A program made the position numbers and the translations under genes. A DNA stretch of 53,843 bases, taken from contig MGQK01000130.1 in the NCBI GenBank assembly GCA_001797815.1, positions 22,213 through 76,055 on the forward strand, written 5' to 3'. Source of the DNA: Deltaproteobacteria bacterium RBG_13_61_14 (GTDB lineage: Bacteria; RBG-13-61-14). Of the stretch, positions 16,417 to 40,430 are shown one piece after another (positions within the stretch are counted from its first letter, which is position 1; every line of letters starts with the position of its first letter). The notes below the pieces were generated by a model. That model was not told where the DNA came from, made no database searches, and saw only the letters and a list, made by a program, of their open reading frames with translations.

Positions 16417-17343
16417 TTACTCCCCTTCCACGAGCTCCGCACGGCGGGCGATTCGGGCCTTGGCGCCATCCTGGAGAAAGGCCTGGTCCTCCGCCACCAC
16501 CAGGTCGCCCAGCTTGACCCCGTCCAGAATCTCATAACTTTTCAGGTCATAATAGCCGAGCTTCACCGGCTGCATGTGCACCCGGTCCGAGCCCAGGACA
16601 AACACCACGTTTTCGCCCCGGCGCTGCACCACCACCTCCTTGGGCAGCACCGGCACTCCCTGGTGCCGGTCCGCCACCAGTTCGATGGTGGTGAACATGC
16701 CCGGCCGGAGCTTGCGCTCGGGATTGGGGATCATGATTTCCACCGTGGCGGTGTGGGAGAAGGAATCCAGGGTGGGCGAAATCCGATAGACCGAGCCTTC
16801 AAACACCCGGTCGGGAAACGCCTCGGTGAGCACCCGCGCCGGCAGGCCCGGTTTGAGTTTGCCATAATCTTCTTCGATCACGCTGGTCTTCACCCGCACC
16901 CGGTCAATCTTCATCACCACCGCCAGCGGAAACTGAGGCGCGACCATGGCCCCGGGGTCAAAGGCCAGCTTGGCCACAATGCCCCGGACCGGACTCTCCA
17001 CCGGGTATTCGGCAAAGGTGACCCCGATCTCGTCCCGGTTCACGTAGGCGATCACCTGGTCCTTGCCCACCTCATCCCCCTCCCGCACCACATTGCGGGT
17101 AAGCTTGCCCGGAATCTTGGAGATCACGTTCACCCTCTCGTCCGGCTCGATCCATCCGGTCAGATCAATGATGTCTTCGATGCTGCCGTTTTTCACTTCC
17201 ATCACCACCACCGGAATGACGGACTCCGCCACCGTGGTCTCCTGCTTGGCCCTGAACTTCAGAGCCATCTGGATCCCCACCGCCGCGATCCCGGCCAGGA
17301 TGATGAACAGGACCACCAAAAAAACAATGCTGCTTCGTTTCAT
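16417..17343 (-). CDS. RND efflux membrane fusion protein (HlyD/AcrA family)
   Basis: 308 residues. One N-terminal anchor (SIVFLVVLFIILAGIAAVG), a barrel-sandwich lipoyl-like domain (GWIEPDERVNVISKIPGKLT, ESPVRGIVAKL), then beta-barrel and membrane-proximal domains (HTATVEIMIPNPERKLRPGM). The hairpin between the lipoyl halves is very short (VGKDQVIAYVNRDEIGVT), so it reaches less far than AcrA. It bridges the RND pump and the TolC channel. Its ATG overlaps the tolC-like stop by four bases and its stop is 3 bp before the RND start. Confidence 0.93.
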   Translation of the reverse strand: MKRSSIVFLVVLFIILAGIAAVGIQMALKFRAKQETTVAESVIPVVVMEVKNGSIEDIIDLTGWIEPDERVNVISKIPGKLTRNVVREGDEVGKDQVIAYVNRDEIGVTFAEYPVESPVRGIVAKLAFDPGAMVAPQFPLAVVMKIDRVRVKTSVIEEDYGKLKPGLPARVLTEAFPDRVFEGSVYRISPTLDSFSHTATVEIMIPNPERKLRPGMFTTIELVADRHQGVPVLPKEVVVQRRGENVVFVLGSDRVHMQPVKLGYYDLKSYEILDGVKLGDLVVAEDQAFLQDGAKARIARRAELVEGE

Positions 17344-18797
17344 GGAGCAACCTCCTCCATCCGCCCAATCGCCTTTTCCAGGCTGGCCTGGGCCAAGAGA
17401 TAATCGTGGACCGCCAACAGGTAGTCGGCCTGCGCCCGAGTCAGCAACACCTCGGCGTCCAACACGTCCAAATGGTTCACCAGACCCACCGAGTAGCGGT
17501 CTTCCGAGACCTTGTAGTTCTTTTCCGCGGCCTGGACGCTTTTTTCGGTGGCCGCAATCCGCTCTTCCGCGGCCCCCAGGGTCAGCGCCGCGGCGGTCAC
17601 CTCCGCCTCGATCCCGGCCTTGAGCGCCGCCTGATTCATTTCGATCTGGTCCTTCAAGCCCTGCGCATTCTTCATCTCGCCCCGCGCGGCCAGACCGTCG
17701 AAAAGCGGCATGGAAAAGCTCAAGCCGGCCTGCCAGCCGTCGCGCCAGATCGTGTCATTCGGCGGCAATTCCTGGCCCCGGTTCCACTGGTAGTTGGCAA
17801 ACGCCCCCACCGTGGGTAAGTAACCTGCCCGCGCAATCTTCTTCAGCCGGTCCGCCTGTTCGTAGCGCAGTTCCAGGCCCTTCAGCTCGGGCCGAGCTAA
17901 AGCCGCGGCATGTTTCAACGCCGGAATCTCCTCCACCGGGGCCGGGGCATAAGCCAGCTCCCCCTCGATATCTGCCGGCGTCTCCAGGTCGAGGTTGAGC
18001 ACGGCGAGCAAGCGCACCTTCGAAAGCTCCAGGCCGTTGTGCACCTGGATCTGCTGAGGCCGGATCGAACTCAGTTGCGCCTCCACCTGCAAGAGGTCCA
18101 GGTTGGACACCATCCCCTGCCGATATAAGTCCTGCACCCGCTTGTAGTGCGCCTCCATGGTGGCAAACGACTTGTCCACCACTTCCACCATCGCCCGGGC
18201 CAGGAGCACCCCGTAAAACGCCTGCTTCACCTGAAAGACCGTGTCCAGCTCCATCCGCCGAAGGTCCTCCTCCTGGGCCCGCGTCTCCAGCCGGGCCGCC
18301 TGATACCCGTTCACCACCCGGCCCCCGGTGAACAACGGCATCTGCGCCTCGAGCTTGGCGTTGTAAATGTTGCCTTCCCGGGTGTTGCTCATCTCAAATC
18401 CAGCTGTAGGATATTTGTGGATGTGATCCGGCGGGACCGGGTCGCCCTGGCTGTTGGCCACCGGGAAGGAAGTATCCAACATGGTTGGGGTCCCGATCTT
18501 GAATTCGGTCAAGGTATTGGACCGCACCAGGGCCCCGCTCGCCGTCAGCTTGGGAAAAAAATTGGCCCGCGCACTGATCTGTTTGCCCTGGCTGGCCCGT
18601 ACTCTTGCCTCCGCCGCCCGCAACTGCGGGTTGTTGGCCAGGCCCAAACGCAGGCTCTCCTCCAAACTCAACCGCAGCACCTCCGTGGCGCGGGTGCCCA
18701 CACCCGCATCCATTCCCTCGGATGGCGCCTGTCCCAAAAAGACCGGCGCCGCCACAATCAGCCCGATCGAGAACCACCGACTTCGCACCCTTCTCAA
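17340..18797 (-). CDS. TolC-family outer-membrane efflux protein
   Basis: 485 residues with a signal peptide (WFSIGLIVAAPVFLGQAP) and two OEP repeats: LSLEESLRLGLANNPQLRAAEARV in the first half and RPELKGLELRYEQADRLKKIARAGYLPTVG in the second, ending in a long helix (LDVLDAEVLLTRAQADYLLAVHDY region). It forms the trimeric exit duct. The TTG start at 18797 is preceded by AGGAGG at ideal spacing; an in-frame GTG at 18788 has no such site. It lies 20 bp after the tetR gene, so the four genes form one operon. Confidence 0.94.
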   Translation of the reverse strand: MRRVRSRWFSIGLIVAAPVFLGQAPSEGMDAGVGTRATEVLRLSLEESLRLGLANNPQLRAAEARVRASQGKQISARANFFPKLTASGALVRSNTLTEFKIGTPTMLDTSFPVANSQGDPVPPDHIHKYPTAGFEMSNTREGNIYNAKLEAQMPLFTGGRVVNGYQAARLETRAQEEDLRRMELDTVFQVKQAFYGVLLARAMVEVVDKSFATMEAHYKRVQDLYRQGMVSNLDLLQVEAQLSSIRPQQIQVHNGLELSKVRLLAVLNLDLETPADIEGELAYAPAPVEEIPALKHAAALARPELKGLELRYEQADRLKKIARAGYLPTVGAFANYQWNRGQELPPNDTIWRDGWQAGLSFSMPLFDGLAARGEMKNAQGLKDQIEMNQAALKAGIEAEVTAAALTLGAAEERIAATEKSVQAAEKNYKVSEDRYSVGLVNHLDVLDAEVLLTRAQADYLLAVHDYLLAQASLEKAIGRMEEVAP

Positions 18798-21407: not shown

Positions 21408-21439
21408 AGCGGTTGCGGGTGTGGGCACCCGCACCACTC
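21408..21439. repeat. REP flank, left, of RAYT unit 1
   Basis: A palindrome GCGGGTG-TGGG-CACCCGC (21415-21432) inside a 32-bp segment that reappears inverted at 21951-21982 with only two differences. It ends 21 bp before the RAYT start codon. Confidence 0.85.
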
Positions 21440-21460: not shown

Positions 21461-21952
21461 ATGAAGCGGGTTGGACCAACGCTGGGGCATCGGCGGCGGG
21501 AGCGTTTGCCGCACTGGGAGAAGGGCGGGTCCACCTATTTTCTGACGTTTTCGGCTCGACGCGGGGAGCATTTCGACGCTCAGGAACGCGCGATCATTTT
21601 GGCCAGTTGCCGTTTTGGGCATCCGGAGAGATGGGTTTTACATGCGGTGGCGGTGATGCCGGATCATGTGCATATGCTGCTAACGCCGCAACGGCCTGCG
21701 CCAAACGCGCCGCAATGGTTTTCGCTGGCTGAGATCGTAAAAGGTATCAAGAGCGTTACGGCTCGAAAGATCGGCCGGCATCGCGGAGGAACCGGCGGTT
21801 CGATTTGGCAGGAAGAATATTACGATCATCTGATTCGGGATCCCGAAGATTTCGCGGCCGAGCTCAACTATCTGCTCCAAAATCCGGTCAAACAAGGACT
21901 GGCGCTAAAGCCCCCCGATTGGGACGGGCTTTGGGTCGGGAAACTTTCTTGA
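21461..21952 (+). CDS. REP-associated tyrosine transposase (RAYT, TnpA-REP family)
   Basis: 163 residues, single Y1 HUH domain. The start region contains GGSTYFLTFSARRGEHF; the HUH motif is MPDHVHMLL (His69, His71); a candidate catalytic tyrosine lies in SIWQEEYYDHLIRD (Tyr120/121). RAYTs are single-copy, domesticated relatives of IS200/IS605 transposases that cut and spread REP palindromes. The gene is flanked by an inverted pair of 32-bp REPs, and its stop codon touches the right one. About 75 percent similar by eye to the RAYT at 39614-40279. No tnpB-like gene is nearby. Confidence 0.93.
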   Translation: MKRVGPTLGHRRRERLPHWEKGGSTYFLTFSARRGEHFDAQERAIILASCRFGHPERWVLHAVAVMPDHVHMLLTPQRPAPNAPQWFSLAEIVKGIKSVTARKIGRHRGGTGGSIWQEEYYDHLIRDPEDFAAELNYLLQNPVKQGLALKPPDWDGLWVGKLS

Positions 21953-21982
21953 GTGATGCGGGTGCCTACACCCGCAACCGCT
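21951..21982. repeat. REP flank, right, of RAYT unit 1
   Basis: Inverted copy of 21408-21439, with palindrome GCGGGTG-CCTA-CACCCGC at 21958-21975. Confidence 0.85.
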
Positions 21983-39613: not shown

Positions 39614-40279
39614 TCAAGCCGGCGGTTCGCGGGTGAGGGCACCCGCGCCCCTAAAGGCAGGATCATCTTTGGGAGGGAGCCAAAGGGCGTCCCAATCTTG
39701 GGGCTGGGCCGCCAGACCCTGCTTGATCGGATTGTGCATCAGATATCGGAGTTTCACTTCGAAATCGGCTTGATCCCGGACCGAGCGGTCGTAATATTCG
39801 TCTTGCCAGATCGAGCCGCGTTGGCGGCCTCGGAGGTGGTTGATCTTCCTGGCGGTAACGCTTTTGATGCCTTTGACGATCTCGGATAGTGAAATCCAAC
39901 GGGGTTGGCGGGTGAGGGCACCCGCCCCCCTAAAGTCAGGTTCGGATCTGGGGGCACCCGCCCCCCTAAAGTCAGGTTCGGATCTGGGGGCACCCGCGCC
40001 CCTAAAGTCAGGCTCGGAACCGGGGGCAGATGAGAACCGATTGACTGGTTGCGGCGTCAAGAGCATATGCACGTGATCCGGCATCACCACCGCCCCATGC
40101 AAAAGCCATTGGTCAGGATGACCGTGCCGGCAACTGGCTAGGATCACCGCTCGCTCTGCAGGATTGAAGCTCTCTCCCGGTTTCGCTTTAAAGGTGACAA
40201 AATAGATGGTCCCGCCGGCCTCAGCATGGTAGAGCCGGCCCCGGCTCCTCTGCTCCGTCTGTCTCCCAATGGTCTTCAT
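39614..40279 (-). CDS. REP-associated tyrosine transposase with in-frame REP repeats
   Basis: 221 residues. Core matches the RAYT at 21461: GGTIYFVTFKAKPGESF, HUH motif MPDHVHMLL (His69, His71) and SIWQDEYYDRSVRD with candidate tyrosines 162/163. Between the HUH motif and EIVKGIKSVTARKI it carries about 36 residues made of three copies of a 12-residue unit (RSEPDFRGAGAP type) that the other RAYT lacks; these are encoded by REP-derived 36-bp repeats. The C-terminus also reads through the terminal REP (AFRGAGALTREPPA) to a stop outside the element. ATG 40279 is chosen over one at 40333 that lies in the repeats. Confidence 0.9.
   Translation of the reverse strand: MKTIGRQTEQRSRGRLYHAEAGGTIYFVTFKAKPGESFNPAERAVILASCRHGHPDQWLLHGAVVMPDHVHMLLTPQPVNRFSSAPGSEPDFRGAGAPRSEPDFRGAGAPRSEPDFRGAGALTRQPRWISLSEIVKGIKSVTARKINHLRGRQRGSIWQDEYYDRSVRDQADFEVKLRYLMHNPIKQGLAAQPQDWDALWLPPKDDPAFRGAGALTREPPA
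39624..39656. repeat. 33-bp terminal inverted REP, left end of RAYT unit 2
   Basis: Contains GCGGGTG-AGGG-CACCCGC and is the exact reverse complement of 40396-40428. Eleven bases separate it from the upstream gene stop. Confidence 0.9.
39915..40022. repeat. three tandem 36-bp REP-derived repeats inside the RAYT gene
   Basis: Units 39915-39950, 39951-39986 and 39987-40022 each contain GGGCACCCGC, CCCCTAAAGTCAGG and TCGGA; the period of 36 keeps the reading frame. The CACCCGC half of the REP is present in each. Confidence 0.9.
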
Positions 40280-40310
40280 CTCAGTTCTCTTATCAAGAAA
40301 TCCCAATTTC

Positions 40311-40430
40311 TTTAGGGGCGCGGGTGCCCTCACTCCCAGAGATCCCCAATCTCTTTAGGGGCGCGGGTGCCCTCACTCCCAGAGATCCCCAATCTCTTTA
40401 GGGGCGCGGGTGCCCTCACCCGCGAACCTC
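40311..40430. repeat. three tandem 43-bp REP repeats upstream of RAYT 2
   Basis: Units start TTTAGGGGCGCGGGTGCCCT at 40311, 40354 and 40397. The first two end in ACTCCCAGAGATCCCC..., the last ends in the full REP CACCCGCGAACC, which forms the right terminal inverted repeat (40396-40428). Confidence 0.9.

Follow-up and report, generated by a model that had tools for sequence, protein, structure and literature searches.

REPtrons such as TnpA_REP of E. coli (structure 4er8) combine an HUH-Y1 enzyme (RAYT), tagged palindromes on both sides of its gene and a family of REPs spread over the genome. The E. coli enzyme cleaves in vitro, as cited in Di Nocera 2013 (PMC3733652). The parts of that paper drawn on here describe REPs of the GTAG/CGTC type that lie in frame in housekeeping genes, singly or grouped, in Opitutus terrae and Rickettsia conorii (RPE-4/6), as well as REPs overlapping the 3' or 5' ends of RAYT genes; they accept a GTGG tag in O. 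terrae, do not list GGGG, and contain no mention of REPs in the interior of RAYT genes or of RAYTs embedded in other genes. Rickettsia palindromic elements are palindromes translated inside proteins, and TIRtrons (TIRYT) place a tyrosine transposase between inverted repeats (same parts of PMC3733652). One survey of TnpA_Y1 proteins left out members that were unexpectedly long, taking them for fusions or errors of annotation (PMC6006769).

The locus described here lies in a window of 53,843 nucleotides from Deltaproteobacteria bacterium RBG_13_61_14 (contig MGQK01000130.1), the window being the whole stretch of DNA that was analysed. It has the three components of a REPtron, but a REP is also found in frame inside a loop of the enzyme, the tag is GGGG/GTGG and not GTAG, and in relatives host genes enclose the entire REPtron. 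Unlike in Rickettsia palindromic elements, the palindrome family has a matching transposase, which itself carries the palindrome. A TIRtron identity was rejected because it needs inverted repeats unrelated to REPs, whereas the repeats here are the REPs themselves. The embedded RAYTs resemble inteins in their in-frame position in conserved essential genes and differ from them in that no protein-splicing domain is among the Pfam matches of the embedded proteins and the insert apparently stays in the host protein. Intragenic REPs are already known; a RAYT that carries its own REP in frame is a new variant. This links three subjects that are usually treated apart, namely REP dispersal, the enzyme presumed to mobilise REPs, and palindromes that are translated in proteins. 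Full-text searches of an open-access library turned up no account of RAYTs sitting in frame within essential genes, a weak sign of their novelty.

The RAYT gene occupies positions 39614..40279 on the minus strand (222 codons including the stop, 221 residues, MKTIGRQ...LTREPPA*) and is intergenic, not embedded in a host gene. Its product matches NCBIfam NF047646 (REP_Tyr_transpos) with 88.2 bits, above the curated cut-off of 80, and Pfam Y1_Tnp (4.5e-8), and its best PDB match, both by sequence and by fold, is E. coli TnpA_REP 4er8. An IS200/IS605 identity was rejected, the IS200 TnpA equivalog NF033573 reaching 28 bits, below its cut-off of 55. All 12 invariant RAYT residues are present. The HUH motif (H69 V70 H71, codons 69-71, 40067..40075, minus strand) is invariant across 41 aligned RAYTs; Tyr179 (39743..39745, minus strand), also invariant, aligns with the NP-proximal tyrosine of TnpA_REP 4er8 and is the presumed catalytic residue.

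Perfect 33-bp inverted repeats bound the element, each with a hairpin of about 8 bp and a GGGG tag. The 3' terminal arm (39624..39656, minus strand) is translated as the RAYT C-terminus FRGAGALTREP, and the 5' terminal arm (40396..40428, plus strand) was found by repeat search and hairpin folding. The minus-strand frame is open through the loop insert and the 3' terminal REP, and the stop codon (39614-39616) lies beyond the inverted repeat; the RAYT thus has no stop inside its own element. The likely start is the ATG at 40279, shared with the sister copies in the alignment, for which a GTG at 40333 was dropped. With this start, an array of three 43-bp units (40302/40345/40388; 40302..40430, minus strand) falls upstream of the CDS. 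Its distal unit is a complete REP and its two proximal units are 5' halves; since 43 is not a multiple of three, the RAYT frame is open in the proximal unit only. Flanked by REPs of a dispersed family, this element is a REPtron, a single-domain HUH/Y1 RAYT between inverted tagged palindromes. The preliminary description, which had recognised a RAYT gene, perfect REP-bearing inverted repeats at the ends of the element and read-out of the gene through its terminal REP, was right on these points.

The 18-mer GGGGCGCGGGTGCCCTCA, with up to three mismatches, has nine matches in the window against 0.24 expected, and at least 117 in the genome against 7 for a reversed control. The exact palindrome pattern occurs at least 50 + 57 times in the genome, compared with 1 + 2 in the control. 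About 90 REP clusters were fetched for the genome catalogue, and all REP counts are lower bounds. The consensus of 81 complete REPs is GACTTTAG[G/T]GG[C/T]-GCGGGTG-N4-CACCCGC-G, that is, a G[G/T]GG tag with the palindrome GCGGGTG-N4-CACCCGC. GTAG-type REPs are defined as palindromes of 20-40 bp with a GTAG-like tetranucleotide at one end; here the palindrome is present and the tetranucleotide is GGGG or GTGG.

A REP was called in frame when it lay at least 20 codons inside an ORF and both of its flanks scored as coding. At least 19 complete REPs are in frame within 15 other ORFs, and their hosts include AlaRS, RecG, a type IIG-like methyltransferase, a KDO-transferase family protein and an O-antigen-ligase family protein that carries two. 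In this genome's AlaRS, a REP codes for 21 residues that are extra by comparison with the solved AlaRS 9jc7, which identifies it as an intragenic coding REP. The frames ...GARVPSPA and RGAGALTRxP are used 12 and 6 times, respectively; the third, used once, meets TAG in CTTTAGGGG. A good fraction of the REP copies lie in frame in genes, most REP reading frames being open. The word "extragenic" is therefore wrong for the REPs of this genome, many of which are in frame in genes, the RAYT included. Six further candidates (C10, C31:24425, C36:31127, C81:176310, C112 and C125:145597) were discarded, the REP lying upstream of the likely start. Within the window, the gene of a TolC-like outer-membrane protein, named by eye (17340-18797, minus strand), has an in-frame REP at 18690-18707, translated as DAGVGTRATEV, immediately after a presumed signal peptide.

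Partial REPs also recur. At six places (C21:7680, C36:14614, C41:17393, C41:67800, C53:102659 and C116:2372), a tag-side half is followed by another REP about 18 bp on, a pattern that suggests polarised growth in frame-keeping steps. At five others (C32:33455, C44:532, C65:9200, C76:20491 and C82:1969), the tag-side half is followed by a common second motif, CCGTTCGGCTGAGCTCACGGCCG or CCGTTCGGCTGTCTTCGACC, which seems to be a further dispersed element attached to REPs.

Inside the window RAYT, three 36-bp units (39903/39939/39975) sit in frame between the HUH motif and Tyr179. Unit 3 (39903..39938, minus strand) is a complete REP with a GGGG tag, GCGGGTG-CCCT-CACCCGC, and encodes RGAGALTRQP. 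Unit 2 (39939..39974, minus strand; encoding SEPDFRGAGAPR) and unit 1 (36 bp plus the array edge, 39975..40024, minus strand) have the REP 5' half with an altered 3' arm; hairpin folding agrees, these two lacking the 3' arm and folding poorly. The units occupy a variable loop that joins the HUH strand to the next helix. Between LLTPQ and RWISL this loop measures 49 residues, compared with 7 for the sister RAYT at 21461, and the span from HUH to KS/KG is 17-29 residues in relatives, where measurable, against 50 in another copy of this genome, C63. Compared with the sister, the window RAYT keeps its frame and its flanks are homologous to a gene without the REP, which identifies the insert as an intragenic coding REP. 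In the AlphaFold model, 10-residue blocks of the core score mostly above 90 and those of the insert about 50-56. The insert is thus predicted to be a flexible, disordered loop that leaves the Y1 catalytic fold intact.

The preliminary description had placed three half-REP units here and counted about 36 residues added relative to the sister. Position and frame were correct, and "half" applies to two units, the third being complete; the units do give 36 residues, and the total added is about 42. It had also seen the REP as expanding both next to and inside its enzyme. This overstates the case: the insert does lie in frame in the enzyme, but it is no special self-expansion, as at least 15 other genes hold in-frame REPs and the RAYT is one target among many. 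The 36- and 43-bp units with the tail CCCAGATCC were searched for among the roughly 90 REP clusters fetched from the genome, and no copy was found outside the window element, which points to local duplication of the array and not to repeated transposition.

The genome holds at least four close RAYT copies, namely the window copy (C130a), C130b (21461), C63 and C71. C130b (21461..21952, plus strand; 163 aa, 60% identical over the aligned core) has no loop insert and lies between a GTGG-tagged REP variant at its 5' side (21415..21437) and a REP at its 3' side (21958..21975). The insert is also missing in C71, which is truncated by a contig end. The C63 copy (C63:15754) carries a REP pair in the same loop as the window copy; the right-hand REP matches that of the window copy in gene orientation and in its right boundary (REP-x-P-R-W). 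The loop REPs of C63 are of the GCGGCTG/GCGCCTG types, which also flank that copy, and the two inserts differ in length and in REP type. Among 79 RAYTs scanned in addition to the window copy, C63 was the only other one with a REP palindrome in this loop; related RAYTs therefore do not all carry the insert at a fixed length. At C71:66928 the contig ends inside the RAYT copy, as expected if RAYT repeats break assembly.

In a tree built with the insert columns left out, C130a and C63 form a clade (support 98/83), so the insert was probably gained once before their split and then inherited. Since the shared inserts differ in REP type, either the insert was inherited and then converted by, or exchanged with, REPs at the flanks, or REPs inserted twice at the same site; a four-copy tree does not firmly separate these. 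A search for this REP family in other genomes of the order gave essentially no matches.

The explanation that we consider likely is that of a REPtron whose REPs disperse, one copy being tolerated in the loop and then growing locally in tandem. The RAYT, or a relative, would have cut and inserted REPs as single-stranded hairpins. One copy would have entered the loop in the ancestor shared by the window copy and C63, where it was tolerated, and in the window copy the unit would have grown through local tandem duplication of its tag-side half.

Three other explanations have been weighed, each of them unlikely. The loop REP could be functional, regulating the RAYT as DNA, RNA hairpin or peptide, for example if the enzyme binds its own gene or mRNA, and could for that reason have been kept in two paralogues and have followed the flanking REP type of each. 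Two paralogues about 59% identical share the site and orientation of the insert, each insert matches its own flanking REP type and a complete hairpin is retained, all of which would fit such a role; we nevertheless doubt it, because the insert is missing from two of the four close genome copies and from all others scanned, unrelated genes also hold in-frame REPs, and the peptide is predicted to be disordered. Replication slippage and ectopic gene conversion between hairpins could instead account for both REP spread and array growth, the RAYT having no part in the in-frame copies. Slippage does not place a REP at about 80 dispersed sites, and this account sits badly with the REPs that bound close RAYT copies with sequenced ends and with same-order relatives that essentially lack such a REP family. 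It is an improbable source of the whole pattern, despite local tandem arrays unique to the window element and the recurrence elsewhere of full REPs that come after a half unit, often at a distance of about 18 bp.

It is no more probable that the window RAYT is a decaying copy in which insert, read-out and arrays are neutral debris: it is the single copy with such arrays and with a frame that reads past the element, but 12 of 12 invariant residues and the fold are intact, and the repetitive insert has introduced neither a stop nor a frameshift. That the repeat block is an assembly artefact is very improbable, even in a draft genome of 132 contigs where repeats are risk regions, since its units differ in sequence, unique DNA flanks it, the reading frame survives, and an insert of this kind also occurs in an independent paralogue on a different contig.

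In its anatomy, the window element resembles relatives whose whole REPtron would be translated in frame in host proteins. We analysed 74 related RAYT loci from named genomes, a sample biased towards RAYTs like the window copy. Many lie in long open frames, and in 26 of the 74 the Y1 domain (Pfam), or HUH sequence at that place, splits a host protein within one ORF. The host is ValRS in seven cases (L006, L009, L010, L011, L014, L015, L034), AlaRS in four (L030, L045, L051, L058), RecG in four (L025, L037, L042, L057), a DNA methylase in three (L004, L048, L061) and an IleRS-type enzyme in two (L001, L002); PriA, DnaK, PurH, MetH, RarA and RdgB are each host to one, the other six embedded loci being L008, L017, L020, L033, L043 and L050. 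In most embedded RAYTs, in-frame REP palindromes mark the ends, typically about 70-80 residues ahead of the HUH motif and 100-120 residues past it. These palindromes are commonly mutually inverted, as in L011 (GACGGGCTTCCAGCCCGTC ... GACGGGCTGGAAGCCCGTC); at the threshold used, none was found for L002, L037 and L061, and some loci have one on one side only. Tandem REPs occur beside the embedded RAYT in L015, L017 and L048, those of L015 being three GTGVPPV units 45 bp apart, like the window arrays. The genomes are mostly drafts, with one isolate, Desulfoferrobacter suflitae (L004). There is good evidence that RAYTs lie embedded, in frame, within essential genes.

In the genomes tested, the interrupted host gene usually has no second copy. 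In four Verrucomicrobiota genomes, the sole alaS is the split one; it is open over 1114-1236 codons, and the RAYT interrupts it at model position 371-380. Five Planctomycetota genomes have a single full valS, which is split, other matches being weaker and resembling other class I enzymes. Four genomes have a recG match split at 324/332-340; the remaining matches in three of them resemble the related helicase Mfd by span, and one genome (G070) has two short fragments in addition.

The AlaRS-embedded RAYTs form one clade in the tree (99/93), and so do five of the ValRS-embedded ones (100/97). Such host-specific clades point to vertical descent after few insertions. Embedded RAYTs have dN/dS values of 0.05-0.22 in close pairs, equal to or stricter than those of the host in most pairs; the values are rough because dS is high, and suggest strong purifying selection on embedded RAYTs where tested. 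In the AlphaFold model of the AlaRS-RAYT of L045, blocks of the RAYT domain score mostly 85-97 and the linkers 415-449 and 599-617 below 50, so that the RAYT is modelled as a confidently folded domain joined by disordered, REP-coded linkers; the overall pTM is only 0.48, and domain packing is therefore not claimed.

These data allow a broader proposal, which we make tentatively and hold to be somewhat less probable than its opposite: RAYT REPtrons may be a class of mobile elements that have adapted to existence in translated form, with REP ends that serve as open-frame linkers, a RAYT that has no stop of its own and in-frame insertion into essential genes (for example the sole AlaRS, ValRS or RecG of a genome), where the element would be an extra host domain protected from loss. 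The window element, which has coding REPs both at its end and in its loop, would then be a free-standing member of this class. In its relatives, a transposase appears to be under purifying selection as a domain of single-copy aminoacyl-tRNA synthetases and RecG, and if the fusions are expressed whole, this would offer a testable answer to the long persistence of RAYTs that do not multiply.

Embedding is a minority habit, as among 199 Planctomycetota genomes about 8 of the roughly 155 RAYT matches listed have open frames of more than 500 codons. Many other Verrucomicrobiota have an uninterrupted AlaRS match, and the empty site is directly visible in ten aligned sequences. In 106 evenly drawn genomes, the AlaRS site has a RAYT-sized gap in two and smaller gaps of 170-310 bp in five. 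The AlaRS genes of G292, G312, G346, G367 and G368 have in-frame inserts of 170-310 bp at the position that holds the RAYT elsewhere, possibly REP-only insertions or remnants of RAYTs.
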